Part shown: positions 5,490-45,586 of the stretch, one piece after another
Numbering within the stretch: position 1 is the stretch's first letter
How the letters are laid out: each line of letters begins with the position of its first letter
Source of the DNA: a virus
DNA: 47,715 nt
Direction: 5' to 3' (one strand)
Virus record (IMG/VR): IMGVR_UViG_3300019360_000019
Location: 1 to 47,715 of that record
Program-made: the position numbers and the translations under genes
The notes under the pieces: generated by a model
Databases searched by the model: none
The model's input: the letters and a program-made list of their open reading frames with translations, nothing else
What the model was told of the DNA's origin: nothing

Positions 5490-6316
5490 CGGCGCGCGAA
5501 GCCCTCGAGCGCAGCATCGTCGGCGCGTACCTCGATCTACCCGACGGCCGGCGCGCCCAGGCCTACCGGGGCCGCGGCGGCGCCGGCGAGGTCGTCCTGT
5601 ACGTCGAGCGCCCAGGCCTGGGCGTGCGGCGCGCCTCGGATGCCGACGGGATCGACGTCGACGCCCCAGGATGGCAACCAGCGCAACCCCGGAAGGAAAT
5701 CCCAATGAAAGATGATGAGCAGGAGCACGCGGGTTCTGGTCCGGGTGAGACTAGACGGCGACCCGATGATCCGGGAGTAAGAGAGCCGGGCCAGAATGGG
5801 GAGCCCGTCGAGCGTAGCGAACCGATCGACGCGGGAGCTGGAACGACCGTCGTCGTCGAGGGCGACGGCGCCCAGGCGTTCGCCGACCGACTCGCCGGCG
5901 CGCTGTCACTCCAGGTCCTGGCGCGCGAGCTGCGCGACCTCCCGGTCCGACTCACGGACACGGACCTGACGGCGGTTGCCCACAGGCTCGCCGACCTCAT
6001 CGACGACACCGAGCAGGAAGAGGCCGACCAGGCGAGCGCGAAAGCGTCCATGAAGGAGAAGCTCGCCGGCCTGAAGTCCGAGCAGCGACGCCTCGCGAGC
6101 ATCCTTCGGCGAGGGATCGAGACACGCCGGGTCGAGGTCGAGACGGTCGCCGACTATGCGGCCGGCCTGGCGCGCTCGCGGCGAACGGGCACGCTCGAGG
6201 AGCTGTCGACGCGACCGCTGACCGAGCGCGAACGCCAGCTCCCGCTCACGCCGGACACCGCGGCCGCGGCGGCCAGTGCGGCCGTCGTCCATTCCGACGA
6301 GGGCCGCGATGGCTGA
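5486..6316 (+). CDS. Hypothetical coiled-coil protein
   Basis: 276 residues from ATG 5486, overlapping the ASCH stop (ATGA). The first 70 residues form a small globular part (YLDLPDGRRAQAYRG); a low-complexity acidic linker follows (about 75-115), then a valine-rich strand, then a strongly charged helix around 180-215 (MKEKLAGLKSEQRRLASILR) ending in a strand with ETRRVEVE. The helical part resembles small phage proteins of unknown role. An internal start at ATG 5705 after GGAAGGAAA could yield a shorter product. Confidence 0.6.
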   Translation: MTAREALERSIVGAYLDLPDGRRAQAYRGRGGAGEVVLYVERPGLGVRRASDADGIDVDAPGWQPAQPRKEIPMKDDEQEHAGSGPGETRRRPDDPGVREPGQNGEPVERSEPIDAGAGTTVVVEGDGAQAFADRLAGALSLQVLARELRDLPVRLTDTDLTAVAHRLADLIDDTEQEEADQASAKASMKEKLAGLKSEQRRLASILRRGIETRRVEVETVADYAAGLARSRRTGTLEELSTRPLTERERQLPLTPDTAAAAASAAVVHSDEGRDG

Positions 6317-6434
6317 GCCAGATCCGATCGAGCGCGAAGGCTACTGCTGCGGTTGCCACACATTCGGGCGCCTGTTCCTCGTCGCACCGGGGCGCTCTCG
6401 TTGTAGCGCGTGCGCCGGGGCGCCGGGCACGTGA
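6309..6434 (+). CDS. 41-residue zinc-ribbon microprotein
   Basis: ATG 6309 overlaps the preceding gene by 8 bases, and its TGA overlaps the GTG of the RuvC-like gene (GTGA). It encodes C-x2-C (CCGC), about 20 residues, then C-x2-C (CSAC), a minimal zinc ribbon, in just 41 residues. The tight overlaps on both sides are the main evidence that it is translated; function unknown. Confidence 0.6.
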   Translation: MAEPDPIEREGYCCGCHTFGRLFLVAPGRSRCSACAGAPGT

Positions 6435-6943
6435 ACGTCCTCGCGCTCGACCTGGCCCTCGCGACCGGATGGGCCATTCGCGAGGGCGCGCGGACCGAAA
6501 GCGGAGTTCAGCTCTTCGAGACCAAGCGCGGGGAGTCGCCAGGGATGCGCTACATCCGATTCCGGCGCTGGCTCGCCGACGTCGGCGCTCGAACAGAGCT
6601 GATAGTTTACGAGCAGACGATTCCGGTGAAGAAGAAGTTCGCTGGCGCCTCGAGTCGAGAACTCGCCGCGGGATTCGCGACGCGCGTGCAGGAATTTTGC
6701 GCCGAGCGCGGGATCGAGCACACGGCCGTCTATCCGAGCGTCCTGAAAAAGTTCGCGACGGGCAAGGGCAACGCGGACAAGCTCGCCATGCTCGAGGCCG
6801 TGCGTCGGCGATGGAACCCCGACGTCGTCAACCACAACGAAGCAGACGCGATCGCGGCCCTCGAGTACGCGCTGGCCGAGATCGTGTTTCATGCGAGCAG
6901 CGGTCGCGCCGGGTACTGCGCGACGCCATCGAGATCCTCGTGA
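6431..6943 (+). CDS. RuvC-like Holliday-junction endonuclease
   Basis: 170 residues from GTG 6431. RNase-H-fold resolvase layout: first acidic residue in NVLALDLALATGWA, second in LIVYEQ, basic KKFATGKGNADK, and final acidic pair in HNEADAIAALEYAL. Length and order match phage RuvC-type crossover-junction nucleases that trim branched DNA before packaging or in recombination. A GTG at 6410 is possible, but 6431 is in GTGA overlap with the zinc-ribbon gene. Overlaps the next gene by GTGA. Confidence 0.82.
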   Translation: MNVLALDLALATGWAIREGARTESGVQLFETKRGESPGMRYIRFRRWLADVGARTELIVYEQTIPVKKKFAGASSRELAAGFATRVQEFCAERGIEHTAVYPSVLKKFATGKGNADKLAMLEAVRRRWNPDVVNHNEADAIAALEYALAEIVFHASSGRAGYCATPSRSS

Positions 6944-7227
6944 GCGCGGGCCTCCGTCGACTGAGTTCCCGGGCCGCCAAGCGATGCGAGGAGGCGACCG
7001 AACCTGTGTGTCGCTGCCGATGCAACGGCGCCCTGCATGGCGCCAGGCGCGGTCCAACCGACTCGTTGCCGCTCAACGACCCACACTCGACGAAGCGCGC
7101 GCGCTGTTCCCATGAGTTCCCCGGATTCCGACGGACGTACAGATGCCCGAGCGCCGCCGTCCTCGAGGTCGGCGGGAAGCCGTACTGTCAGCGACATGGC
7201 AGCGAGGCGAGCGGGGAGACGCATTGA
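6940..7227 (+). CDS. Cysteine/histidine motif small protein (CRCRCNGALHG)
   Basis: 95 residues from GTG 6940 in GTGA overlap with the RuvC-like gene. The motif CRCRCNGALHGA near residue 25 is one I recall from short uncharacterised phage proteins and probably binds metal; further cysteines near residues 57 and 69, then YCQRH near the end, add ligands. It ends in TTGA overlap with the next gene. Function unknown. Confidence 0.6.
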   Translation: MSAGLRRLSSRAAKRCEEATEPVCRCRCNGALHGARRGPTDSLPLNDPHSTKRARCSHEFPGFRRTYRCPSAAVLEVGGKPYCQRHGSEASGETH

Positions 7228-7433
7228 GGCGCGAGGACCGCGAGGACGCATTCGGCGACGCCTGCTATCGAGCCTGGCAGCGCGGGCTCGACCCGGACCA
7301 GGTCGACCGCGACCGGTTCGACCAGCGGTTCGACGACACCGACGACCGCGAGGTCGCGATCGAGGCCGAGCTGCGATACCTGGCGCGGCGGGAGCGTGGC
7401 GTGCGCGTGACCATCAGTCAGGAGAAGGGGTGA
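7224..7433 (+). CDS. Hypothetical acidic/basic helical protein
   Basis: 69 residues from TTG 7224, chosen because GGGGAG lies 7 bases upstream and it overlaps the previous stop (TTGA). The frame is open back to an ATG at 7143, but that part overlaps the preceding gene. Highly charged (DRDRFDQRFDDTDDREVAIE), probably all helix. No family recognised. Confidence 0.55.
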   Translation: MRREDREDAFGDACYRAWQRGLDPDQVDRDRFDQRFDDTDDREVAIEAELRYLARRERGVRVTISQEKG

Positions 7434-7435
7434 CC

Positions 7436-7579
7436 ATGTCGCGTGAGCAGTGTCGGGACGTCGTCGGGCGCCACGTGCGATTGCTTCGTGATATCAGCAC
7501 GCGCGGCGGCGAGACCTTCAAGGCGGGGCGGATCATGGTTTGCTACGGCACGTATCGTGGCCGATTCACCTTGCAGTGA
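7436..7579 (+). CDS. Small conserved-type phage protein, 47 residues
   Basis: ATG 7436 preceded by AGGAGAAGGGG. The sequence RHVRLLRDISTRGGETFKAG followed by CYGTYRGRFTLQ is typical of a compact beta-barrel small phage protein with a glycine-rich turn; I recall such short proteins without known function. It follows its upstream neighbour by two bases. Confidence 0.6.
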   Translation: MSREQCRDVVGRHVRLLRDISTRGGETFKAGRIMVCYGTYRGRFTLQ

Positions 7580-7680
7580 CCGAGACTGAGCCAGCCGGGC
7601 GCGTGGCGAGGCGTGAGCCAAGTCAACCGCGATGCCTTCGAGATCCTCCCTGATGAAAAGGCAGCGGAGGCGGGGCCCGC

Positions 7681-8245
7681 ATGAGCACACGCCCGGTGGT
7701 CACGCGCGACAACTACGCGGCCACGCTCGCCGGACTCTGGGCACTCGCCGCGCTCATCGAGCCGATGCCTTGCGCAAAGAGAACGACGAGCTGCGCCGGC
7801 AACTCGAGCAGCTCGAGCGGCGACCGGACCCTCGACCATCGGGACCGATCCCGCTGGTCGTCGACCAGGTGCCCCGTCCCGTGACCGGGCTCGACGAGGC
7901 GCTCTACCAGTCGCTCAAGGCGAGGAGCTGCCGCAGGAGCCGGCCGTGCTTCGCATCCTCGTGGAGCAACCTGAGCTCCGTATCGAGATTGAGCGCCAGA
8001 TCGTGACCGTCGATGGGGCGTCCGGTGATGGGTGGATCGGGCGACTCATCGCCAACGGGTTCTTCGATCAGGTGACGACCGGATACGCCGTCTTCATGGA
8101 ACTGCAGCGCCGTGGCGCCAAGCTGGCCAGGCCGACGGCGTACTCGTGGTGCGACAACATGGTGCGCCGCGGCTTCCTCACGAAGGAAGGCAAGGAAGGC
8201 TATCGAGCGGTCGCCGGTATGAAGGTCAACATCGTGGAGCGATGA
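7681..8245 (+). pseudogene. Frameshifted coiled-coil/winged-helix-like gene
   Basis: Three consecutive frames read as one protein. It starts at ATG 7681 (STRPVVTRDNYAATLAGLWA), passes near 7765-7770 into the frame with ALRKENDELRRQLEQLE (coiled coil) and a proline-rich linker to LDEALYQSLKA, then near 7920-7925 into EELPQEPAVLRILVEQPELR and a C-terminal helix-turn-helix-like part (IGRLIANGFF, TAYSWCDNMVRRGFLTKE). Both shifts equal a one-base deletion, giving about 187 residues if repaired. The last piece is also open from ATG 7946 (99 residues) and could be made alone. Either decayed, or an assembly error. Likely DNA-binding if intact. Confidence 0.6.
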
Positions 8246-23900: not shown

Positions 23901-26368
23901 GCGAGAGTCCCGCGCTCATCGCCTCATCCGTGCGCGGCTCCGGCGACGTGCCCTACCTCTCGCAGGGCGACGCCGAGGCCATCGCCGAGCAGATTCGGCA
24001 AGGCGCGGTCGCGCTGCTCGAAGCCTTCACGAAACTCGACGAGGTCAAGGATCGCATCCGGGAGATGGCGCCGAAACTCGTGGACGCGGCGGAGCAAATC
24101 TTGCCGCCCGAGGCCATCCCGGCGGTCGAGGCTCGCGTCAACGACTTTCGTGACCGGCTCCTCGCGGTGGTGTCCGAGGGCCTCCCCGCCGAGGAGATGC
24201 AGAAGCAGCTCGACGTGATCGGGGCCGAAATGCAAACGTACCTCGCCACGATCACGCTGTTCGGCACGCTCACCCAGGACATCGCGCGCCTGTCGGGCGA
24301 CGTCGCGACCCAGACCCAGGGCGCCATCGTCGGGATCCGCGCCATGGTGGACGCCGCGGCCGACGCCGTCGAGGATGCGCAGACGCGCGCCGATCGCGCC
24401 GTCGGGGTCGAGGAAGTGCTGGCCGCGAACACGGCGCTGCGCGAAGCCGTCCTCGCCCGGTACGAGCTGGAGATGCAGCTCGTGAGGGACATTCAGGCTG
24501 CGATGCAGCAGCTGCTCGCCGAGCGAAAGCAGGTCGACGACACCCTCATCGGACTGGCCGTCGCCGATGTGGCCAAGGGGACCACGGCCGCCTTCGACGA
24601 GCTGTACATGTCCCTGGCGCAGATGGCGATGACGGCGCCGACCGTCGCCCAGCGGCTGTACGCGATCGCACAGGGGCTCGCCGCGGTGATCGCGCTGGCA
24701 CAGGTCAACGCGGCCAACTTCGTCAACGGCTCGAGCATCTACGGCCCGGGCGTGAACCCGGCCACTGTCGGATTGCAGCCGCCCCCGCCGGGCGGCTACA
24801 CGATCCCCGAGCAGATCGTCTCGACGCTCGCCCAGCAGGCCGCGCCGTTCCTCGGGGCGCTCGCGGATCTCATCGACCAGGCGCGCGATGCCGGCGACCT
24901 CCGGGGCACGCTGAGCCTGCTCCAGCAGCAGGCCGAGGCGATCCGGGCCCTCGGGGCGGCCGCCGAGCAAGCGGTCCGCCAGTGGGCCACCGCGGCGCTC
25001 GCCCAACTCGAGAAGGACGCGGCCGACAAGGTCAAGGACGCCACCAAGAATTGGGACGCCCTCGAGAAGTTCATCAACACGACGGCCGACGCCGAGCGTC
25101 TTCGGATCGAAGAGGCGCGCGACACGCGCATCGCGGGGCTCGAGTCCGAAATCTCGAAGATCCAGGAGGCCACGAAGGCCCGCCAGGAGGCGATCGCCCT
25201 CGAGGTCAAGGGCCTCGAGGCGCAGCAGCAGGCGCTCTCGGAGCGACTCGCGGCGACCCGCGAGTGGGAGGGCGTCGTCAAGAACGTCGATGGCGCGCTC
25301 CGCTCGCTGAGGCTCGGCAACCAGGCGCCGCTCAACCCGGCCGACCAGCTCGCCCTCGCGGAAGGGAACCTCGATCGACTCTTCGCGGCGTTCCAATCCG
25401 GGCCGTCGGCGGCGCTCGCGGGCGACGTGCAGGCCGCCGTCCAGGAGTTCCTCCAGGCGGAGCAGGGTGTCAACCAGCGGCCGAGCGCGGAGTACCAGGC
25501 GGCGTTCGTCAAGGCGACCGGGATTCTCGAGGCGGTCAAGGGGATCGCGATCGGCGAAGCGGGCCCGGTCTCCTCGGCTGATCTCGAAGCGCAGACGAAG
25601 GCGATCGGCGAGCGCATCGCGGAGCTGCGCGAGGAGAGCCAGCGGATCGGCGACGCGGCCGCCAAGCAAGTCGAGATCCTCCGCGACCAGATCGAAGAGG
25701 CGCGGAAGAACGCCGAGGACCAGATCAAGGCGATCGAGCAGTGGCGGACGTCCGAGCTCGAGATCGCGCGTCTGGGCCGCGAGAACGACCTCGAGCTGAT
25801 CGAGGACTGGAAGGAAGCCCAGAAGACAGTCATCGAAGACACCGCCCAGGCTGAGATCAACCGGATTCGGGACGGCGTGGCCGAGGCCCTCCGGGCCAAC
25901 GCCGTCGAGCAATACCGGATCCTCGACCTCCTCGAAGGGCAGCAGCTCGAACAGCTCCGGGCGATCATCGGCGACCAGCCCCTGCAGGAGTTCACGGCCC
26001 AGAAGGCCGCCGAGACCGCGCAATACCTCAAAGAGATCCGCGACGGCCTCGGGCTCCTCCCGGTGCACGCCGAGGGCACGACGTTCGCCCGCGGCGGCCT
26101 CGCCGTCCTCGACGCCGGCGAGATCGTGGTCCCGCCCGGGCCGTCGGCGCGGTTGCGCCGCGGCGGCATCGCCACGACGACGGCCGCGCAGCTCGAGCGC
26201 AGCGGCGGACCGTCGATCACCTTTGCGCCGACCTTCCACGTGTCCGGTGTCAACGACCCGGCCTTGGTCAAGCGGGCGATGCGCGAGCAGTGGGAGGAGT
26301 TCAAGCGCGAGCTCGTCACGGACTCGACCCTCAACCGGAAGCTCCGCCGGAGCTTGCAGGAAGTATGA
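20984..26368 (+). CDS. Tape measure protein
   Basis: 1794 residues, the largest gene. N-terminal helical region, a 40-residue tandem duplication (NNAGLVAAIDAQTEAYENEL and NNAGIVAAIEARAAEYEDEL, residues about 499-575), a very hydrophobic glycine-rich stretch near 800-870 (likely membrane-inserting on DNA ejection), and long C-terminal coiled coils with KDATKNWDALEKF and QKAAETAQYLKEIR. At the usual 1.5 angstrom per residue this predicts a tail of roughly 270 nm. It overlaps GT (TGATG) and the next tail gene. The part from about 21350 to 22600 uses visibly different codons, suggesting a recombined segment. Confidence 0.96.
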   Translation: MPQVELRVVVNNADTAIRVMQNLSKEGAQIGSVIPASTAKADQALGGLASRVQHVAGVMSQAGVNTGVLGQAVGALSSPFGVAAAGAVAFGLAIKGVTDFMLQNYEQLRKLTAVSGLGAEEADRLADAFELLGVNTEGLHGALFKMSAEIDSGGQAIRRLGVDLRDSEGALKVEGQLFLELRDEISKLGTASERNAALMDIFGRSARDMATIFAMSEEKFREWLETAGKMGPSAEESMRVTEAYRAEVAKLTKSWQGFIEAVGIGVLPALTSVIEKMNEARIASSNFFVEADKWIEGLYQKWNRFQQSFGPGSGWFPGKLSDEQLALAGGIGTSDIVRSRESTGRSGLLKAEIDALTKLNEIARMAALPEGERNIAKLRKELEDLAERTGPAEQAARALVDTILRFAGVDQAIDKVGRSFGLINAQLAAGVITNAAYKAGLEAQIASLQAMGKALDESGTLKLLQLQAALQKFDPGPQLDAMVDSWNEFLEVQRAIEQNNAGLVAAIDAQTEAYENELRVLAALNDARAAEEQRLEEINNAGIVAAIEARAAEYEDELRVLAALGDPARQYQNALESLRVEAAIFGDRFDAVGATISAMENRLRELARTSGGQVTPAMIELRQELEGFYQFRDLRDMFTGIFDQVHAGIARVAEGLALGTRTWKEWGQTALDVIRSVALSILNDLLKQALTPLYRQLATVAATAISGGTPAVAPAAGTGTTLGPFGSGSGQTPGNGFSFGVPTSIFDSGTLSTIGSSVQGAYAYLTGALGQGSEFLGAVSEVGIDLAQLGAGASSLTVVLAGVGAALAVFGTIMDFVNGNVGAGVGGVVGGTVGAIAGGIIGTYVLPGVGTVLGALAGGALGDFLGSIIGGLFGGPSEYDLKRLKAADEANAALGQVAGGYQAAVYGTPADVLAALTGGGGGAASNSVRSELVLSSGLANQLGITGQQIGDQIVAQWIALTQEQFAGVLTAFRESPALIASSVRGSGDVPYLSQGDAEAIAEQIRQGAVALLEAFTKLDEVKDRIREMAPKLVDAAEQILPPEAIPAVEARVNDFRDRLLAVVSEGLPAEEMQKQLDVIGAEMQTYLATITLFGTLTQDIARLSGDVATQTQGAIVGIRAMVDAAADAVEDAQTRADRAVGVEEVLAANTALREAVLARYELEMQLVRDIQAAMQQLLAERKQVDDTLIGLAVADVAKGTTAAFDELYMSLAQMAMTAPTVAQRLYAIAQGLAAVIALAQVNAANFVNGSSIYGPGVNPATVGLQPPPPGGYTIPEQIVSTLAQQAAPFLGALADLIDQARDAGDLRGTLSLLQQQAEAIRALGAAAEQAVRQWATAALAQLEKDAADKVKDATKNWDALEKFINTTADAERLRIEEARDTRIAGLESEISKIQEATKARQEAIALEVKGLEAQQQALSERLAATREWEGVVKNVDGALRSLRLGNQAPLNPADQLALAEGNLDRLFAAFQSGPSAALAGDVQAAVQEFLQAEQGVNQRPSAEYQAAFVKATGILEAVKGIAIGEAGPVSSADLEAQTKAIGERIAELREESQRIGDAAAKQVEILRDQIEEARKNAEDQIKAIEQWRTSELEIARLGRENDLELIEDWKEAQKTVIEDTAQAEINRIRDGVAEALRANAVEQYRILDLLEGQQLEQLRAIIGDQPLQEFTAQKAAETAQYLKEIRDGLGLLPVHAEGTTFARGGLAVLDAGEIVVPPGPSARLRRGGIATTTAAQLERSGGPSITFAPTFHVSGVNDPALVKRAMREQWEEFKRELVTDSTLNRKLRRSLQEV

Positions 26369-27129
26369 GCGTCCGATTCTCGCCGACGAACCTCGCCCGC
26401 ACGGCCGCGTCGATCACCGCGTCCTCGTCGGACGGGCAGTATCCGGTCGCGAACGTGAAGAGCGCCAACAAGCCGCATCAACCCTGGAAGTCGACGGCGC
26501 TCGGCGACCAGTGGATCCTCATCGACCACGGGTCAGCGAAGGCCGTCGACGTGTTCGCCCTGATCAATGGCAACGTCACGTCGGTCCGATGCCAGGCGAA
26601 CGCCACCGACTCCTGGGGCGGCGCGCTCGGCTACGACCAGCTCGTGACGGTCGGGCAAAGCCCGTCCGACATGTACCAGCACGGGCACCGGGCCGCGTCG
26701 CCGCAGTTCTTCCGCTACAACCGCATCTTCATCCCGTCGCAGGCGACGACTGACGGCGCGAGCCAGTACAAGGTCGGCGCCCTCTGGCTCGGGGCCGTGA
26801 CCACGCCGCCGCAGGACCTCCTCGTCGAGCCTGACGAAGAAACGCCGGAGCCCTTTCACGAGGAACGCCCTGGTCACGGCGGATGGGTCGAGCGGACCGC
26901 CATGGGCTACAAGCGGTTTCTGCTCTCGGCGATCCGCTACGCCAGGAGCGAGGGCGACCTCGCCGCGTGGCGGGCGATCGAGCAGGCCTGGCCAGCTGCC
27001 GGCTACGCGCTCGTCCTGCTCCGCGATGCGTACCCGGCCGAGACCTTCGTGATGCAGCGGCAGCCGGCGACGTGGCGTCACGGCCGCGTCTACATGGAAT
27101 CGCCCCTCGAGGCGGAGGAACTCGTATGA
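26365..27129 (+). CDS. Distal tail protein with discoidin-like N-terminus
   Basis: 254 residues from ATG 26365, overlapping the tape-measure stop. The N-terminal part (ARTAASITASSSDGQYPVAN, then DQWILIDHGSAKAVDVFALI) resembles the galactose-binding/discoidin jelly-roll used by phage tail-tip proteins. The C-terminal region with HGGWVERTAMGYKRFLLSAI is typical of proteins that follow the tape measure in this phage type. Likely forms part of the baseplate hub. Function inferred from position and fold pattern. Confidence 0.65.
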   Translation: MSVRFSPTNLARTAASITASSSDGQYPVANVKSANKPHQPWKSTALGDQWILIDHGSAKAVDVFALINGNVTSVRCQANATDSWGGALGYDQLVTVGQSPSDMYQHGHRAASPQFFRYNRIFIPSQATTDGASQYKVGALWLGAVTTPPQDLLVEPDEETPEPFHEERPGHGGWVERTAMGYKRFLLSAIRYARSEGDLAAWRAIEQAWPAAGYALVLLRDAYPAETFVMQRQPATWRHGRVYMESPLEAEELV

Positions 27130-27398: not shown

Positions 27399-28138
27399 GC
27401 CTCGGCACGCCGACGCAGAAGACCTTCGTCGCCGACCCGAACAATCTCGCCATCTATGGCCCCTCGGCGAGCGTGTCGGCGAATGCGGGCGACCTCATCC
27501 TCGTCGCCGCGTATAGCTGGTCGAACGCCGGCAACGTGGCCGCCCCGAGCCTCGTGGCCGAGAGCACGAACACGCTGCGCCTGGTCAGGCTCGCCGCGAC
27601 CGTGGCCGCCTCCGCAAACAGGCCGAGCCTCGCGCTCTGGGCCGCGCAGTGCCGCGCCGCCTTCACCGGGACGTTTACGGTCACCTATCCGGCGGGGACC
27701 CAGCGCGGGTGCATCTTCCAGGTGACGGTGATTCCGGGCGCCTCGCTCGCCGCGGCCGTGCGGCCCGACAACCTCGTCACGAGCGCGGGGACGGGCACGT
27801 CGAACACGTCGACGCTGCCCAAAGCGCTGGCCGGCGCCGCCCACTATCACTTCCTCATCCACGCGCACCAGAAGAGCGAGAACCTCTCTGGGATCGACGG
27901 CTTCACGCGCGTCACCGGCGCGGGCGACCTCAGCGTCGTCGACAGCGGCAATACGACCGAGGCGACCCTGGCCGTGCTCTGGAAGGCCAATGCCACGAGC
28001 GGGGCGTTCACATGGGCGTCCTCGGTCGCCTGGGCGGCGCTCTCGGTGGAGATTCAGGCGCCGGTCTTCGCTGCCGTCGTCGACGTGGATCGCCCGAAAC
28101 CCGTCTGGTTGGTGAACATCACCCCGGCGCTGGCCTAG
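27395..28138 (+). CDS. Beta-rich tail adhesin component
   Basis: 247 residues from GTG 27395 (GTGA overlap). All-beta appearance with alternating hydrophobic strands and many S/T/G residues (ANAGDLILVAAYSW, TGTFTVTYPAGTQ, AHYHFLIHAHQKSENL). Such proteins are common among tail-tip/adhesion genes after the tape measure. No enzyme motif seen; specific role unknown. Confidence 0.6.
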   Translation: MSLGTPTQKTFVADPNNLAIYGPSASVSANAGDLILVAAYSWSNAGNVAAPSLVAESTNTLRLVRLAATVAASANRPSLALWAAQCRAAFTGTFTVTYPAGTQRGCIFQVTVIPGASLAAAVRPDNLVTSAGTGTSNTSTLPKALAGAAHYHFLIHAHQKSENLSGIDGFTRVTGAGDLSVVDSGNTTEATLAVLWKANATSGAFTWASSVAWAALSVEIQAPVFAAVVDVDRPKPVWLVNITPALA

Positions 28139-28146
28139 GAGACGAC

Positions 28147-29364
28147 ATGCCCAATCTCACGCCCGGTCCCATCCTGTTCGACCTCGGCGCCGACCACGTC
28201 CAGCTCTGGGCGCGCACCGACGGCCCGGCCGCGCTGCACGTCGTGTGCACGCCGCTCGACGTCGGCGAGCCGGTGATATTCCCGGCGGTCACGACGGACG
28301 CCGCGAGCGACTACACGGCGGCGATCCTGATCGCCGGGCTGACGCCCGGGACGGTCTACCAGGCGGAGCTCTCCGTCGACGGCGTCGCCGCGGGGCTGCG
28401 CCAATTCACCACGCTGCCGGCCGAGGGCGATCCGGCGGAGCTGCGCCTCGCGTTCGTCTCTGACACCTTCCGCGCCTATCCGGCGCCGGCGCTTGGCGCG
28501 CTCCGGGCCCTCTGGCCGATGGGCGTCTTCGTCATCGGCGACCACGATCACACGAACTATCTGAGCAACACGTCAACGGCGACGGGCGCGCTGATGAAGG
28601 CGCGCAACGCGCACCGATGCCTCCGCGACGACAGCACGGAGCTCGGGGCCGACGTCTGCGAGTTCATCATCGACGCCGGCGTGCCGATCCTCGGGCACAT
28701 CGCGGACGATCACGACTGCGGCGCCGACAATCGCAACAAGAGCGGCAAGTGGTGGCCCGAGGTCCTGCAGGCCATGCGGGAATACTGGCCGGTCTCCGCC
28801 GATCACGGCTACCTCGAGGGGTACATGTACTCGAGCGTACGAATCGGGCGGACGATCGTCGCGCTGCTCGACACCCGCACGCACCGCGACACGCCGGGCA
28901 CGCACAAGAAGCTCCTGGGCGACGAGCAGTGGGAGTGGCTCGGTGGGGTCGTCGACGAGGTCGGCGCCGGCCAGACGTTCGATCGCCTGGTCCTCGTGAG
29001 CCCGGTTCCGGTTAATCCCCTCCAGCACAAGCTCGATAGCTGGTTCGGCTACACCGACGAGCGCGTGCGGCTGGTTGAGATGCTCGCGCCAATCGTGGGC
29101 CGGGTGGTCGTCGTCTCCGGCGACTGCCATTGGGGCAGCATCGCGCTGCCGCCGATCGTGGCGCTGCCCGAGATCAACATTCCGAAGCTGCAAGAGCAGG
29201 GCTTCGCGAATACGTGCAACAACGCCGCGCCGCAGTGGACGCTCAATTCCCTGACGCCCGGCGGCGGTTTCGGTCTGCTGACGATCAATCCGGCTGCGGT
29301 CCTCGTGGAGATCTACAACGCCGATGGCTCGCTCCGGCTGAGCGCCACGGTGCCGCTGGTCTAG
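28147..29364 (+). CDS. PhoD-family metallophosphodiesterase in the tail module
   Basis: 405 residues from ATG 28147 with AGGAG. Residues 1-92 form an N-terminal beta domain of the fibronectin type often preceding PhoD. The catalytic part shows the PhoD motif series: VIGDHDHTNY (129-138), ADDHDCGADN (186-195), LDTRTHRD (241-248), LGDEQWEWL (257-265), DSWFGYTDERVRLV (297-310) and VVSGDCHWG (322-330), which bind the metal centre. PhoD enzymes cleave phosphodiesters and monophosphates, including teichoic acids. No signal peptide is present, so it is probably virion-bound, acting on a host surface polymer. It lies between adhesin genes. Confidence 0.88.
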   Translation: MPNLTPGPILFDLGADHVQLWARTDGPAALHVVCTPLDVGEPVIFPAVTTDAASDYTAAILIAGLTPGTVYQAELSVDGVAAGLRQFTTLPAEGDPAELRLAFVSDTFRAYPAPALGALRALWPMGVFVIGDHDHTNYLSNTSTATGALMKARNAHRCLRDDSTELGADVCEFIIDAGVPILGHIADDHDCGADNRNKSGKWWPEVLQAMREYWPVSADHGYLEGYMYSSVRIGRTIVALLDTRTHRDTPGTHKKLLGDEQWEWLGGVVDEVGAGQTFDRLVLVSPVPVNPLQHKLDSWFGYTDERVRLVEMLAPIVGRVVVVSGDCHWGSIALPPIVALPEINIPKLQEQGFANTCNNAAPQWTLNSLTPGGGFGLLTINPAAVLVEIYNADGSLRLSATVPLV

Positions 29365-29366
29365 CA

Positions 29367-30029
29367 ATGTCGACCGTCGGACAGGACACCTTCACCGAGG
29401 GCAGCAACACCGCCCTCCAGTCGCATACCCCGGACATCGGGAGCGGCTGGACGAACGAAGCCAACCAGTTCACCGTGCTCGCCGCCTCGGACGATCTGCG
29501 GCACGACACCACCGCGCTCCAGCGCACTCGAAAGGGCGACGACATTGGTGACGACAACATGGTCGTCACCGCCGAGGTCAAGGTCGCCAACACGGCGAAC
29601 CGTGTCGCCGGCGTGTGCGCGCGGATGTCCACCGACGGATTCGCCGACCAGTACGAGGCATATCTGCTGCGCAACAGCGGCACTCAGCAGGACGTGGTGC
29701 TGTTCAAGAACGTCGGGGGGGCCCGGACCCAGCTCGGCTCGACGGCGACGATCACGCTGAACTCTTCGACGTACATCTGGCTCCGCCTCACCATCGGGGC
29801 GGGCACGCAGCTCGTCGAGACCTCGCCCGATGGATCCGCGTGGACGACGCGGGTCTCCACGACCGAGGCGGACACGACGCTGCAGGGCCGGCAATACGCC
29901 GGCCTCATCATGAACGGCAACAACAACAACGGCACGGGCGCCGACGAGTTTCTGAGCGAGAGCGTCGCTGTCGCGACTCAGCCGCCCTACACGCCATGGC
30001 CGCAACTGGCGCCGATCCTGGCGCAGTAA
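29367..30029 (+). CDS. Concanavalin/LamG-like beta-sandwich adhesin
   Basis: 220 residues. The strand pattern with DDNMVVTAEVKVANTANRVA, YEAYLLRNSGTQQDVVLFKN, TYIWLRLTIGAGTQ and RQYAGLIMNGNNNNGTGADE is characteristic of carbohydrate-binding concanavalin-like jelly-rolls found in phage tail proteins. It follows the PhoD gene by two bases, so the two may sit side by side on the tail tip and combine glycan binding with polymer cleavage. No catalytic residues could be assigned. Confidence 0.65.
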   Translation: MSTVGQDTFTEGSNTALQSHTPDIGSGWTNEANQFTVLAASDDLRHDTTALQRTRKGDDIGDDNMVVTAEVKVANTANRVAGVCARMSTDGFADQYEAYLLRNSGTQQDVVLFKNVGGARTQLGSTATITLNSSTYIWLRLTIGAGTQLVETSPDGSAWTTRVSTTEADTTLQGRQYAGLIMNGNNNNGTGADEFLSESVAVATQPPYTPWPQLAPILAQ

Positions 30030-30050: not shown

Positions 30051-30536
30051 ATGTCCAGAGAGTACGTGCTGTCAGACGGCGGTCTCACGCTCGCCAACCA
30101 GGCCGTGACGCTCGGCTTCATCAACCCGGGCACGACGGCGTCCCTGGAAATTCTCCGATGCTGGGCCTCCCAGTCGGCGAACGCCACCAGTGCCCAGCAA
30201 CGCGTCCAGACGAACACCCAGGTGAGCGCGTTCCCGACGGTGGTCTCGAAGACGCCGAGCAAGCTGAAGCTGTCCGACCCGGCCTCGGTCATCACCGGCG
30301 CGACGAACGGCGCGGCCGGGACGTGCGGCATCAACGCGTCGGCCGAGGGCGCGGGCGCCAAGACGGTGCAGCATGCCGATGCCTTCAACGTGCTGAACGG
30401 CCATCTCTGGGTCCCGACGCCGCCCGAGACAATCATCATGAACGCCGGCGCCTCATCGGGATTCGGCTACCACTTCCCGGTGGCCCCCGCGACCCTGACC
30501 AACTGGGCGTTCGGCATCGTGTACCGCGAGTTGTAG
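30051..30536 (+). CDS. Beta-rich tail-tip protein, unknown
   Basis: 161 residues, strong AAGGAGGAG before ATG 30051. S/T/A-rich with regularly spaced strands (LTLANQAVTLGFINPGTTAS, SGFGYHFPVAPATLTNWAFG). Likely a virion protein of the tip; no family recognised. Confidence 0.6.
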   Translation: MSREYVLSDGGLTLANQAVTLGFINPGTTASLEILRCWASQSANATSAQQRVQTNTQVSAFPTVVSKTPSKLKLSDPASVITGATNGAAGTCGINASAEGAGAKTVQHADAFNVLNGHLWVPTPPETIIMNAGASSGFGYHFPVAPATLTNWAFGIVYREL

Positions 30537-30539
30537 ACG

Positions 30540-30761
30540 ATGCCGGCGAAGGGGATCGTCCTCGGCAAGCCGGCCGAGTACGCGCAGGTCACGGATCTGC
30601 TCGATGCGTACTTCGCGGCGCTCCGCGCCTACAACCGCGAGCTGGGCGCCTACGAGATGACCGCCGCGCAGCTCCGTGACGCGCGGGAGCGTGAGGCCCT
30701 GAGCTACGCCCGGGTGCGGAGGCTCAAGGAGCAGCTCATCGAGCGGAGCATCGCCGTCTAG
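30540..30761 (+). CDS. Small helical tail-module protein
   Basis: 73 residues from ATG 30540, three bases after the previous stop. Nearly all helix (LLDAYFAALRAYNRELGAYE, then LRDAREREALSYARVRRLKE), so it probably forms a coiled coil. No family recognised. It may be an assembly helper or an adaptor for the following large fibre. Confidence 0.55.
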   Translation: MPAKGIVLGKPAEYAQVTDLLDAYFAALRAYNRELGAYEMTAAQLRDAREREALSYARVRRLKEQLIERSIAV

Positions 30762-30770
30762 CGCGACCCG

Positions 30771-33700
30771 ATGCCGATCTTCTACCCACCGCCACCGCCG
30801 CAGCCGCCGACGCCCCACCTCGTCCAGGGGGCGCCGGCGGCGCCGTCGGACAATCCTCCGTTCGCGCGCCGGACCGTCGTCGCCGTCTTGGCGGCGGTGG
30901 CGGTCGCGTGGCAACCCGGCCCGCTGCCCATCCAAGCGGCCGGCAAGCTCCCGGTCTCGGTCACCGCCGTCCCCGCCGATCAGCTCCCATTCGATGCGCG
31001 AGCCGCCGCCACCCGGGCGGCGATTCTGAGCACGTGGCAGCCGACGCCGCTCTCGCCACAGGCACGTTCGCCGCAGCAGGCGCCCAAGCTGGTCCCCATC
31101 ACGGCCGCGGCCGCCGACGCACCGCCTCCGACGAACGCGGCGGGCCTCCTGGCTGCGATCCGCGGCGCGTGGGAGGCGCCGCCCCCGCGCCCACAGGTCG
31201 GCGCGCATCTGCCGTCCTCGCTCGCGGCCGTGGCGGTCAGCAACCCGCCATTCGCCGTCCGGGCGTGGCGGTCCACGATCCTCGCCGCATGGGAACCGCC
31301 CCCACCGGCCTGGGTCGCGCGGCCGCCGAACCTCCGCAAGATCCCACAGGGCGGGACGTGGGTCTTCGTCGAGCCCGCGGCCAGCTCCTACCACGCGAGC
31401 TACGACCTCGACGAGCTGCCGACCCAGTATTTCGGCGACCTCATCGGCGAGCCGGTGATCACGCGCCGGATCCACGATGCGACCTTCGGGCCGGTCGAGG
31501 TCGAGGACGTCACGATCGAACTCAACAATACGAGCGGCAAGTTCACGGCCGCGTACCTGGCCGGGCGGATCAAGGGCAGCCGGCCGACGACGATCCAGCG
31601 CTACGACCGGCAGTCCGGCGCCCTCGCGACCGTGTGGACCGGGACGATCACGCGGCCGCGCCTCGGCCGCCACCGACTGGTGCTCGAGGGGAGCAACCTC
31701 AACACGGCGATCTTCGATCAGCCGGTGCCCGAGCCGGTGGTCGACACGGCCACCTGGCCGAACGCCGTCGATGTCGGCGCGACGATCCCCGTCGTGTTCG
31801 GCAACGTCCCGAGGTTGCCGCTCCTCTACGTCAACGACAACGTGGCCGGCAGCCAGTTCGACCGCACCGTCGGGTGGGGCGCGCTCACCGTGACGGCCGT
31901 CTCCCGCGGTGGCCCGAACGACACGCTCTACCTCCTGGCGTTCAGCGACTTCGAGAAGGTGGGCGGCGGCGCCGCGACGAGCTGGGCCGAGGTCGCGCGC
32001 TACGACATCACGCCGGGAACGACGATCGTTCGGACCCTCCAGCGGCAGGTCGATTTCAACAACGCCCATCACAAGCTCTTCGCCGACGTCGTCGGCCCGC
32101 AGGACACCCGGAACCCCGCTCGAGCGGCCCGCTGCTTCTTCCAGGACGCCTCCTGGGGCATGAACCGGGCGATCAATGCGGAGAGCTTCAACGCCGCCGA
32201 GCAGGCGGTCGGCCTGGTCGAGTCGACGAAGCCCTACGCGGCGGCGATGCTCGCGCTCGCCCCGACCGTCTACTACCGCCACGGCGAGGCCTCCGGGACG
32301 CAGATGACGGACGCGAGCGGCAACGGGCGCCACGGGACGTACACCGGCGGGCCGACGCTCGGCGCGCGCGGCCTCCTCATGAACGACGACGACACAGCCG
32401 TCTCGTTCGAGGGCGACCCCGCGAAGTTCGGATCGCTCGCGGCCGCCACGGCGGCGGCGCTCAACCACGCGACGGCGGGGACGCTCGTCTACGTGTACAA
32501 GCCGGACCTGTTCGACACGCGCTCCGGCATCGCCGAGAAGACCATCGGCGGGGTGGTCAACACGCAGTGGGTGCTCTACCACGGCGACGGCGGGCAGATC
32601 GTGTGGCGGGTCGTCGTCGGGAGCGTGGGCAAGGACGCCATGTTCCAGATGACGACTGCGGATGTTGGCCGGCCCATGCACCTGATCGCCACCTACAACG
32701 CGGGGACGTCGAAGCTCTATGTCAATGGCCGGCTCGTGGCGACCACCACGTACGCCGGGTCCATCGACACCGGCAGCGGCGACTTCCTCGTCGGCAAGCT
32801 CGGCACGGGCGCCGCGGACTACGACTGCCAGGGCGACCTCGACGAGGGCGCCTTCATCGCTGGGACCGCCGTCACCGACGCGCAGGCGCTCACGTTGTAC
32901 CAGGCGGCCGTGACGTCCGGTCTGATGTGCGACGGGGCGCTTCTCGAGCCGCGCAAGGCCTCGGACTGGCTGGGCGAGCTCTTCAAGTTCCGCGGCATGC
33001 GGCCGGGCATCAACGCCGCCGGCGAGGTCACGCTGAGCGTCGATCAGCTCGTCAACATGAGCTGGCCGACCGCCTTCGATCAGGGCGAGGAGGCGGGCGA
33101 GCGGAGCCTCCTCGACGTCGAGGAGCGCGCACCGGTCGACGTGACCGAGCAGATCCGGAAGGTCGTCGTGAAGTACCGGATCGATTACGCCTCGAGCGAC
33201 CGCCGGCCGCTCTTCCGCGCGGTCCGCGTGATCAGCACTGACGCCGAGGCCAGCGTCGATCGCGCCACCTATCCGCTGGTCCGCGAGCACCTGACGGCCG
33301 ACATCATGGCCCACTACCGGGCCGAGAAGATTCTCGCGAGCCAGGAGCGCGTCACGGGCGTCGTTCTCGGCCAGGCCTACCAGCAGCTCCGCGAGGGCGA
33401 TCGCCTGCCGATCATCGAGCCGCTCCTCGGCATGGCCGGCGAACTCTGGGAGGTCCGCGAGGTCTCGGTCGAATTGCCCCGCGTGACGGCCCAGCTTCAC
33501 CGCTGGTCGTGGACCCCATACCTCTACACGCCGGCCGCGCTGCCGACCGACAACGTCCTGGGCACCGCGTCGGACTTCTCGAAGACGCCGCCGACGGCCG
33601 TCAGCGTGTTCACGCGCTCCGGCTCCGGCAGCACCACGGTCGCCAACGACGGCCGCGTCTCCGCGAGCGAGACGTTCAACGTCACGACGCCCACGTCCAA

Positions 33701-34637
33701 CTTCAAGTGCGTGCACATCCGCTACAAACTGAGCGGCACGACCGCCTGGATCGAGGGCGCGCAGTCGGAGACGGCCGGAGCGCACACCGTGCGGCTCGAG
33801 GGCTTGCTCCCGGGCACGAGCTATGACTTCCGCGCCATCGTGGAGAACACCTTCGGGTTGTTCTCCTCGCCGGTCGACCTGACGGCGGTCACGACGGCGA
33901 CCGACGCGACCGTGCCGAGCGCGCCCTCCGCGCCCACCGTCACGAATCCGAAGCCGGGCCTGTTCCTCGTCGTGGACTCGACGGTCCGCCCGCTCGACTA
34001 CGCCGAGACCATCGTCTACGCCAACACCGCGAACTCCTCGTCGAGCCCGACGCCCACCGAGGTCGCGCGCGGGCGAGCGCGCTACTTCGTCATCAGTAAT
34101 CAGGCGTACGCGTCCCAGCGCTGGTTCTTCCTGAAGCAGGCCGATCTCAGCGGCAACGTGTCGGGTTTCTCGTCGTCTGGCACCAGCGGGGCGAGCGGGG
34201 CGGCGAAGGCGACAGGTGGGTCGAGCGGCGATATCGCGACGACAACGGTTGACACCGTCAACGTCGTCGCAAATGCCATCAGTAACTATGACGACGCGGC
34301 CGATGACACCTATTCATCAGCGGAACTGAACGAACAGGTCGTCATCACGGTGAGCGTTCCAACAGATGGCGGGATCGTGGCTGTACAGGCGAAGGCCACG
34401 CTCGTCGCGGACGCCGGATTCCCGGCGATCTTCCGACTTCGCAAGACGAACGTCAGCGGGGCTATACTGGATACCGTCACGCTACGGGCGGCTAGCAATA
34501 GCGTTCCAGTGAGCGGATCTCTCCTCGGGTTCGACGCGAGCCCATCCGGCACGCAAGACTACGTCCTCACGGTCGAGCCAACGGTGACCTGCACCGTGAA
34601 CGACGCCAGGATGCTCGGCGTGAATCTCAAGAAGTAG
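30771..34637 (+). CDS. Tail-tip/host-specificity protein with LamG and FN3 domains
   Basis: 1288 residues. N-terminus is proline-rich with four degenerate repeats (about 28-192) of about 41-45 residues, each with PPF-x-R, a hydrophobic helix and a W-x-P-x-P element. Residues 200-480 resemble hub-type domains (QYFGDLIGEPVITRRIHDAT). A LamG-like lectin domain lies at about 495-715 (DASGNGRHGTYTGG, LYVNGRLVATT, DLDEGAFIAG), hub sequence resumes at 720-920, and a fibronectin type III domain follows (about 936-1045). The last 140 residues (from base 34190) are less GC-rich and probably are the receptor-binding tip. It replaces lambda gpJ by position. Confidence 0.82.
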   Translation: MPIFYPPPPPQPPTPHLVQGAPAAPSDNPPFARRTVVAVLAAVAVAWQPGPLPIQAAGKLPVSVTAVPADQLPFDARAAATRAAILSTWQPTPLSPQARSPQQAPKLVPITAAAADAPPPTNAAGLLAAIRGAWEAPPPRPQVGAHLPSSLAAVAVSNPPFAVRAWRSTILAAWEPPPPAWVARPPNLRKIPQGGTWVFVEPAASSYHASYDLDELPTQYFGDLIGEPVITRRIHDATFGPVEVEDVTIELNNTSGKFTAAYLAGRIKGSRPTTIQRYDRQSGALATVWTGTITRPRLGRHRLVLEGSNLNTAIFDQPVPEPVVDTATWPNAVDVGATIPVVFGNVPRLPLLYVNDNVAGSQFDRTVGWGALTVTAVSRGGPNDTLYLLAFSDFEKVGGGAATSWAEVARYDITPGTTIVRTLQRQVDFNNAHHKLFADVVGPQDTRNPARAARCFFQDASWGMNRAINAESFNAAEQAVGLVESTKPYAAAMLALAPTVYYRHGEASGTQMTDASGNGRHGTYTGGPTLGARGLLMNDDDTAVSFEGDPAKFGSLAAATAAALNHATAGTLVYVYKPDLFDTRSGIAEKTIGGVVNTQWVLYHGDGGQIVWRVVVGSVGKDAMFQMTTADVGRPMHLIATYNAGTSKLYVNGRLVATTTYAGSIDTGSGDFLVGKLGTGAADYDCQGDLDEGAFIAGTAVTDAQALTLYQAAVTSGLMCDGALLEPRKASDWLGELFKFRGMRPGINAAGEVTLSVDQLVNMSWPTAFDQGEEAGERSLLDVEERAPVDVTEQIRKVVVKYRIDYASSDRRPLFRAVRVISTDAEASVDRATYPLVREHLTADIMAHYRAEKILASQERVTGVVLGQAYQQLREGDRLPIIEPLLGMAGELWEVREVSVELPRVTAQLHRWSWTPYLYTPAALPTDNVLGTASDFSKTPPTAVSVFTRSGSGSTTVANDGRVSASETFNVTTPTSNFKCVHIRYKLSGTTAWIEGAQSETAGAHTVRLEGLLPGTSYDFRAIVENTFGLFSSPVDLTAVTTATDATVPSAPSAPTVTNPKPGLFLVVDSTVRPLDYAETIVYANTANSSSSPTPTEVARGRARYFVISNQAYASQRWFFLKQADLSGNVSGFSSSGTSGASGAAKATGGSSGDIATTTVDTVNVVANAISNYDDAADDTYSSAELNEQVVITVSVPTDGGIVAVQAKATLVADAGFPAIFRLRKTNVSGAILDTVTLRAASNSVPVSGSLLGFDASPSGTQDYVLTVEPTVTCTVNDARMLGVNLKK

Positions 34638-35109: not shown

Positions 35110-35370
35110 ATGCTCACCCCAGAACTCCGCGCCTCACTCGTCCGCGGCCTCTTCCACGCCCTCGTCGTCGCGGCCACCGCGTTCTTCACCGCGTGGACCG
35201 ACCCGAGCATCCCGACGCGCACCCTGGTGTCCGTCTCCGTGCTCCCGGCCCTCGCCGTGTTGGGCAGCCGGTTCATCGGCGAGGGCTGGAAGGATTCTGC
35301 CGCCGCCGCCAAGCCCGGCACGCCGGAGCACGCGGCCCGCGTGGCGCGCTCCACGGGAACAGGCACGTGA
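35110..35370 (+). CDS. Putative holin-like membrane protein
   Basis: 86 residues, AGGAGG before ATG 35110. Two hydrophobic segments (LFHALVVAATAFFTAW and LVSVSVLPALAVLGSRF) separated by a short polar turn, and a polar C-terminus. Size and topology, and position at the start of the lysis block, fit a holin that would perforate the inner membrane, but holins lack conserved motifs. GTGA overlap with the lipoprotein gene. Confidence 0.55.
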   Translation: MLTPELRASLVRGLFHALVVAATAFFTAWTDPSIPTRTLVSVSVLPALAVLGSRFIGEGWKDSAAAAKPGTPEHAARVARSTGTGT

Positions 35371-35750
35371 CCGCCGTGTGGCTCGCCCTCGCGGTCACGC
35401 TCGCCTCGGCCCTGCTCGTGGGCTGCGGCTCCCAGGCCACGGCGCCCGGCGGGACGCTCAGCGTGATGAAGGAGCCGGACACCATCGCGGTGCCGCTGCA
35501 GCCGGCGCGCGACCTCTACGCGACGATTCGCCTGACCGTCAAGGACCGGTTCGCCCACGCCGAGTCCCTCTGTCTCACCGGCAAGCTGCCCGCGGCCACC
35601 TGCCGCCAGGTCGCGCTCGATCGCCAGGCGGCGCAACAGCTCGACTTCGAGATCAATCGATCGCTCACCTCGCCCAAGGCCACGCTGGACGTGGAGAAGA
35701 TCAAGCGCGTTCTCGAGCTATCGGCCAAGCTCATCGGCGCGGCGCTCTGA
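35367..35750 (+). CDS. Lipoprotein (possible outer-membrane spanin)
   Basis: 127 residues from GTG 35367. The N-terminus VTAVWLALAVTLASALLVGC is a lipoprotein signal with an LVGC lipobox; the mature part is helical with RDLYATIRLTVKDRFAHAE and a cysteine pair (ESLCLTGKLPAATC). In a lysis block such a protein could be an o-spanin, though it is longer than most and no clear i-spanin partner is identified; the next gene's transmembrane helix plus long coiled coil is one candidate. Confidence 0.6.
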   Translation: MTAVWLALAVTLASALLVGCGSQATAPGGTLSVMKEPDTIAVPLQPARDLYATIRLTVKDRFAHAESLCLTGKLPAATCRQVALDRQAAQQLDFEINRSLTSPKATLDVEKIKRVLELSAKLIGAAL

Positions 35751-45515: not shown

Positions 45516-45586
45516 TGCAGGGCGGGCGGTCTCGGCCTAGGGCTCATAACCCTGGAGACCCGGTTCAACTCCGGGCCCTGCTACCA
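45516..45586 (+). tRNA. tRNA with CAT anticodon, initiator-like, short D-arm
   Basis: Acceptor TGCAGGG (45516-45522) pairs with CCCTGCT (45576-45582) except for a T:T at 1-72. Anticodon stem TAGGG/CCCTG with loop CTCATAA (45543-45549) gives CAT; T-arm CCCGG-TTCAACT-CCGGG (45559-45575) is perfect, followed by A and an encoded CCA. Three G:C pairs next to the anticodon loop and the unpaired 1-72 are initiator tRNA hallmarks. The D-arm is short: only 15 bases lie between acceptor and anticodon stems (3-bp stem, no clear GG loop motif), so it may be degenerate. Confidence 0.72.

Follow-up and report, generated by a model that had tools for sequence, protein, structure and literature searches.

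Most known virion depolymerases cut glycosidic bonds or remove acetyl groups. The idea that a phage PhoD protein acts on host-surface phosphodiesters is not new, since cleavage of teichoic-acid phosphodiesters or DNA was proposed in 2015 for ORF22 of phage P1312 by its authors (PMC4569894). The same report detected 24 of the phage's 93 proteins in particle preparations that had been purified, and its Table 1 (particle LC-MS) gives no coverage value for either the PhoD protein ORF22 or the tail protein ORF21. A signal peptide was also predicted there for ORF22 (L100:7992-11282); as the purple-acid-phosphatase N-domain match in this protein (weak, E 0.014) starts at residue 2, the predicted peptide may correspond to the first strand of that domain.

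In cyanophage YongM, the PhoD protein (MT426122.1, 5778-7736) ranked 7th of 32 proteins by LC-MS score (1132), with a lysozyme and a tail protein as its neighbours and the tail fibre lower down in Table 4 of PMC8875764, whose authors classed it under DNA anabolism. The sample was amplified and concentrated phage, and contamination is possible because the printed extraction protocol is one for algal cells, so that the virion association is not watertight. A cyanophage mutant, UV3, was considered as evidence that PhoD is dispensable, as it carries a one-base deletion at 6196 in the PhoD ORF (PMC11356776), and was rejected because the deletion would fall near codon 513, after the PhoD domain, assuming the YongM gene (5778-7736, minus strand). 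No test of virion PhoD activity was found in the literature searches made, as judged by titles and abstract starts. For B. subtilis PhoD, the ligands C180, D207, D265, D266, N271, N272 and D436 have been mutated, a tyrosine is bound to the iron, and two subfamilies with either Cys or Asp as an iron ligand were described (PMC4223295).

The record and its tail operon

The window analysed here is the entire IMG/VR virus record IMGVR_UViG_3300019360_000019 (47,715 bases, 69% GC). Judging by its gene families, the phage is temperate (Table 1). Families of the large terminase, portal, head protease, lambda-type decoration protein, major capsid, neck, major tail protein and tape measure were recognised; since no sheath gene was recognised among the gene families of the 47,715-base record, we read the phage as a siphovirus. 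The profile match of the decoration protein is spread so widely that about 190 extra residues are implied, and its hydrophobic N-terminus is odd for a head protein.

Table 1. Features of the record discussed in the text
Feature	Position	Strand	Basis or remark
Integrase	58-1086		gene family match
ParB-like protein	2354-3784		gene family match
Lambda gpD-type decoration protein, 372 aa	15381-16499		all 116 profile positions matched across residues 64-369
Tail tape-measure protein, 1794 aa	20984-26368	+	PHROG 8462/167, tail length tape measure
Gene after tape measure, 254 aa, no function assigned	26365-27129	+	phrog_8610; 4-nt overlap with tape-measure gene
Small gene, 90 aa	27126-27398	+	without family match
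Gene directly upstream of PhoD, 247 aa	27395-28138	+	without detectable family
AGGAG ribosome-binding site	28137-28141	+	read from sequence; overlaps upstream stop codon
PhoD-like phosphodiesterase, 405 aa	28147-29364	+	Pfam, PHROG, AlphaFold2 model, alignment
ConA/lectin-like partner gene, 220 aa	29367-30029	+	GH43_C2 below cut-off; resembles L012 C-terminal domain
Tail-tip operon gene, 161 aa, without assigned family	30051-30536	+
Small operon gene, 73 aa, without assigned family	30540-30761	+
Large tail protein, 1288 aa	30771-34637	+	Laminin_G_3 at residues 597-693; Fn3-like stretch below cut-off
Small protein with lipobox-like (LVGC) N-terminus	35367-35750		3' of holin-like gene
tRNA-Met (CAT) gene	45516-45586		near right end of record

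The initial annotation had located the PhoD gene in a tail-tip cluster, and this is borne out by a continuous operon: the genes form an unbroken run from the tape measure (20984) to the end of the 1288-aa tail protein (34637), spaced at -4 to +21 nt, and GC3 in this run is 0.87-0.95. The PhoD gene lies inside this module as an intact ORF with an ATG start five nt after the AGGAG, the previous stop codon being 8 nt upstream. Its placement between beta-sandwich adhesin genes stands in part: the downstream gene resembles a ConA-like domain, with a score just below the cut-off, while the upstream half of the claim is unproven because that gene has no detectable family. By eye, the 1288-aa protein has the look of a tail hub, with Laminin_G_3 in mid-protein and a proline-rich N-terminus.

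A comparable slot was sought in viral contigs, where no relatives of the upstream gene, the tape measure and PhoD alone were found; the search with the lectin-like gene gave one short match. Among annotated phages, the tape measure had weak partial matches only in four Butyrivibrio phage records. It had no match in 369 genomes of the class of G003, an outcome that carries no weight as to its absence there. PF09423 was detected in none of seven records with a related capsid gene (L093-L099), five of which are fragments of less than 19 kb. The two long ones have tails that look unlike that of the present record and that we take, judging from start sequences alone, for contractile and P2-like, so they give no comparable PhoD slot.

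Identity, metal site and relatives of the PhoD-like protein

Sequence and model comparisons indicate that the product of 28147-29364 (hereafter P0001) is PhoD-like, as proposed in the initial annotation. It scores 39.4 bits against PF09423 (cut-off 27, E 5.2e-10) and 28.9 bits against DUF7800 (cut-off 27) and matches PHROG 24476 'phosphodiesterase' (E 8e-12), with no match at 0.01 to any NCBIfam model. A PDB search with the single sequence found 9uya (E 9.7e-5) and, weakly, 2yeq; with the 72-row profile, 2yeq was matched at E 2.8e-54, a value that mainly tests the alignment because the profile holds many cellular PhoDs. Structure prediction and comparison with PhoD, suggested earlier as a check, point the same way. 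The AlphaFold2 model (72-row alignment; pLDDT 85.4, pTM 0.89, low confidence at 345-358) is predicted to have the PhoD fold, including an N-terminal beta-sandwich domain (residues 1 to ~90) followed by the metallophosphatase core. When the top chains from Foldseek were aligned with VIA-align, B. subtilis PhoD (2yeq) ranked first (Z 35.6, rmsd 2.7), the alignment covering 385 of 405 residues across the model span 1-405, followed by plant purple acid phosphatases (Z 33.8 and below), animal purple acid phosphatases (~23), GpdQ and Rv0805 (~19) and Mre11 (15.6).

The N-terminal fibronectin-like domain of the initial annotation is thus present, but rather than a phage adhesin module it appears to be the usual N-domain of PhoD and purple acid phosphatases, as it aligns from residue 1 with 2yeq and the plant enzymes. 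Since the first strand of this domain (residues 9-11 of the model) already stands at the start of the protein, there is no room for an export signal, in agreement with the reported lack of a signal peptide: the 14-residue hydropathy mean peaks at 1.36 within residues 1-45, and the Tat export signal of B. subtilis-type PhoD was not found. By a crude measure, a hydrophobic N-terminal stretch is present in 60 of the 82 complete cellular homologues scored, among the matches listed, and by the same crude test in two (L007 and L011) of seven PhoD ORFs from IMG/VR phages or Dfl-JY23.

Ligand positions in P0001 are D106, D132, H135, D187, D188, D194/N195, D326 and H328. D132, D187, D188 and D326 are the equivalents of D207, D265, D266 and D436, and H328 is the His of GDxH, which we take to be a metal ligand as in purple acid phosphatases. 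The position of the iron ligand C180 is occupied by Asp106, consistent with the Asp-type subfamily; among the matches listed, 73 of 92 aligned sequences (P0001 and 91 loci) have Cys and 14 have Asp at this position. The tyrosinate motif GDxxY is absent, the iron-site Tyr being replaced by His135: across the same 92 sequences, Tyr occurs in 88, His in three (P0001, L013 and L014) and a gap in one. The profile pairs N271/N272 (the Asn pair at CaB) with A193/D194, followed by N195; since most homologues have [AR]-N-D here, this class of PhoD may coordinate CaB differently.

These comparisons drew on a cellular genome scan from which the best 80 of at least 370 confirmed matches were used, and the alignment for folding contained 71 of the 92 loci plus P0001 (72 rows), after removal of L001 (the same window), L002-L006, L044 and L089 (<280 core residues) and 13 near-duplicates or sequences with poor ends. 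Overall identity is 19-28%, yet of the 21 columns with a conservation of 90% or more among the 71 homologues kept, P0001 retains 18 (among the matches listed). The conserved columns lost are Tyr135, Trp186 and Leu269; the near-invariant Trp of WDDH is Ala, while R244, Q261 and W264 are kept. The "full PhoD motif series" of the initial annotation is therefore accurate in that all five quoted motifs are present, but not as regards the iron-site Tyr and Cys. A loss of metal-binding residues on alignment with solved PhoD, which had been named as an argument against the reading, is, leaving aside the Asn pair at CaB, confined to these two replacements.

In other metallophosphatases, this metal is bound by His. 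As His135 is thus a plausible ligand, an active but metal-altered site is favoured by our analysis, in which a divalent ion may take the place of Fe3+ at the first metal site; the change from Tyr to His could also mean altered or lost activity. This subtype raises the question of which metal is used by a PhoD-like site without the purple tyrosinate iron.

In a FastTree tree of the 72 rows, P0001, whose branch is long, groups with L013 and L014 (support 0.94), and its sister is a clade of six phage contigs and an Ilumatobacter MAG, the 10 leaves together having a support of 0.91. L013 (Planctomycetota), L014 and L113 (both Chloroflexota) have GDxDH in common with P0001 and are the most similar sequences to it among the matches listed (31-32%). 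They are located in cellular contigs and look exported, with hydrophobic or lipoprotein-like N-termini, whereas P0001 has no leader; since these relatives share the His, the replacement of Tyr is not private phage decay. A profile of the three GDxDH rows, searched against 301 genomes of the phylum of L014, recovered only the genome of L014 itself (two copies, E <= 1e-60), and one match each was obtained in 369 genomes (class of L086) and 385 genomes (class of L069) at E <= 1e-40, both of the GDNIY type and not GDxDH. The GDxDH type thus looks rare, at E cut-offs that would hide weaker members.

PhoD genes in other phages and the lectin-like neighbour

When P0001 was used as a query against annotated phages, one match (Dfl-JY23) was obtained. 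With the Dfl-JY23 protein as query, 63 of 50,697 records were recovered, comprising phages of Streptomyces (31), Microbacterium (28) and, one each, Dolichospermum, Nostoc, Anabaena and Thermobifida. The annotation given to phage PhoD genes is 'hydrolase' or 'purple acid phosphatase'.

Gene surroundings were surveyed at 12 loci (P1312, Hortus1, L007, L009, L012, Dfl-JY23, Elbi, Targaryen, A3Wally, Pumpernickel, L010 and L011), with L008, a 4.8-kb contig, left out. Structural genes adjoin or closely flank PhoD in five of them: it is the second gene after the tape measure in P1312 and L012, has a head gene on one side and a tail gene on the other in L007, follows tail-fibre-like genes in L009 and is located between capsid and head-tail stopper genes in Hortus1. 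The neighbour in Dfl-JY23 is named capsid fiber protein, and the layout is alike in Elbi, where the neighbours are unannotated; the surroundings of L010 and L011 point in neither direction. Phage PhoDs are not always virion parts, given that Streptomyces phage Targaryen and Microbacterium phages A3Wally and Pumpernickel (3/12) carry the gene outside structural modules.

The gene directly downstream of PhoD (29367-30029) reached 21.1 bits for GH43_C2, a ConA-like family with a cut-off of 22.7. Its product also aligns with residues 678-859 of L012 (BLASTP E 0.006), an 896-aa actinophage protein with a PhoD match at residues 141-343 that, from about residue 430, matches Streptomyces phage proteins, several of which are annotated as minor tail protein. 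The local score against the L012 C-terminus is 78 and was reached by none of 500 shuffles (mean 39, sd 5.9). In control comparisons, the score was reached by 477 of 500 shuffles for the PhoD part of L012, 50 for its middle, 34 for the P1312 C-terminus, 154 for the Dfl-JY23 C-terminus, 314 for the L009 C-terminus, 321 for the gene upstream of PhoD, and 139 and 379 for the first and second parts of 30771-34637. In hhalign, the probability was 37% (E 3.5e-4) for the L012 C-terminal domain and 0.3% for the control, the gene upstream of PhoD; folding from one sequence gave a pLDDT of 33.5. The alignments make the link to a lectin moderate in strength, and a fusion relationship, with neighbouring genes here and a single chain in L012, is suggestive.

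Possible role and comparison with known systems

The head module (TerL, MCP, gpD) is of lambda type, and its best matches come mainly from phages of proteobacteria, cyanobacteria and Wolbachia; capsid matches are mostly to Pseudomonas, Escherichia, Rheinheimera and Vibrio phages. Together with the lipoprotein-like gene of the lysis region (35367-35750), whose product is possibly an outer-membrane lysis lipoprotein, these genes suggest that the host is probably diderm, although head genes do not settle the host because heads and tails recombine. Wall teichoic acid would fit such a host poorly, and the substrate would then have to be a diderm-surface phosphodiester polymer, phospholipid or extracellular DNA. 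The tail phosphodiesterase of the initial annotation is partly supported, by the PhoD fold, the tail-tip operon, the lack of an export signal and the nearly complete set of ligands, but teichoic acid as its substrate is weakened by the lambda-like head. That it stands in for the usual glycanase tailspike is no more than a possibility, given that several neighbouring genes have no known family.

Our preferred explanation, to which we assign a probability of about 0.6, is that this PhoD-like metallophosphodiesterase becomes part of the tail tip in a temperate siphovirus and cuts host-surface phosphodiesters at adsorption, beside its lectin-like neighbour; virion presence, catalysis, substrate and the pairing of the two proteins are what we infer here. 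The protein would be made along with the tail genes and, lacking a leader, could gain access to the cell surface only as part of the virion or once the cell has lysed, and the tail operon, the L012 fusion and the YongM LC-MS list favour the virion. Most likely docked through or beside the lectin-like product, which would hold a surface glycan at adsorption, the PhoD centre would cut phosphodiester bonds nearby and open the way of the tail to its final receptor or to the membrane. Candidate substrates are a phosphodiester-linked glycopolymer, surface phospholipid or extracellular DNA of the probably diderm host. A more specific version is put forward tentatively, in which a metal-switched GDxDH subtype (His for Tyr, Asp for Cys) serves as a leaderless tail-tip depolymerase of a diderm phosphodiester polymer and forms a two-gene unit with a lectin-like protein that is fused to it in an actinophage.

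A catalytically silent PhoD domain could instead serve as a receptor-binding adhesin fold that binds a phosphorylated surface ligand without cutting it. The His at the iron site, the Ala in WDDH, the long branch and the tail-tip place near lectin-like genes would all suit such a protein; however, the four Asp ligands, the GDxH His, R244, Q261 and W264 are kept and the exported-looking cellular relatives L013, L014 and L113 share the His, and we regard this reading as unlikely. Considering that cellular PhoD proteins serve phosphate acquisition (PMC4223295) and that in Targaryen, A3Wally and Pumpernickel PhoD lies away from structural modules, the gene might alternatively encode a non-virion phosphatase, acting at lysis or in auxiliary metabolism, that frees phosphate from organic phosphate and is placed in the late operon for convenience. 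Such a role is quite doubtful for a protein without an export signal whose gene is embedded in a tail-tip operon, with spacings of -4 to +21 nt, and not among metabolic genes. An enzyme directed at nucleic acid inside the infected cell, or at DNA of competitors as it enters (a block to superinfection), appears very improbable: the metallophosphatase superfamily includes nucleases and DNA was one option of the P1312 authors (PMC4569894), but by fold the protein is nearest to PhoD (Z 35.6) and to plant purple acid phosphatases (Z 33.8), with Mre11 only at 15.6, and the gene belongs to a late tail operon.

If the tail-tip enzyme reading is true, such a phosphodiesterase would widen the surface chemistries that phages can open and offer a lead for enzymes against phosphate-linked capsules. 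Moving some phage PhoDs to the surface enzymes of the virion is an annotation correction that would cost little and could be tested. What is new here is the Tyr-to-His subtype, the setting with a lambda-type head and the possible two-gene split of an actinophage fusion.

Among known systems, P1312 ORF22 (ALA06393.1) shares with P0001 a place in the tail operon, being the second rather than the fourth gene after the tape measure, but it has 1096 aa with a CBM_4_9-like region below cut-off, whereas P0001 is a stand-alone protein of 405 aa with His for Tyr; the host of P1312 is actinobacterial (Thermobifida), while the present phage has a lambda-type head. The 'alkaline phosphatase D' proteins of YongM, Elbi and Dfl-JY23 are encoded beside a capsid fiber protein gene, and that of Dfl-JY23 lacks a leader like P0001; in contrast, they have 650 aa with a C-terminal extension and belong to contractile-tail cyanophages, and Dfl-JY23 keeps the Tyr (GDIHY). 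Tail-module phosphodiesterase domains thought to cut wall teichoic acid are also found in enterococcal phages, but those GDPD proteins represent another family (PF03009) in phages of Gram-positive hosts (PMC10194240), whereas P0001 belongs to PF09423. B. subtilis PhoD (2YEQ) has the whole-length fold in common with P0001 (Z 35.6), although it is Tat-exported with Cys and Tyr as iron ligands (PMC4223295), compared to Asp and His and no export signal in P0001; the alignment ends at residue 480, and the C-terminal cap helix (Arg-562 and His-566, precursor numbering) has no counterpart in the phage protein.
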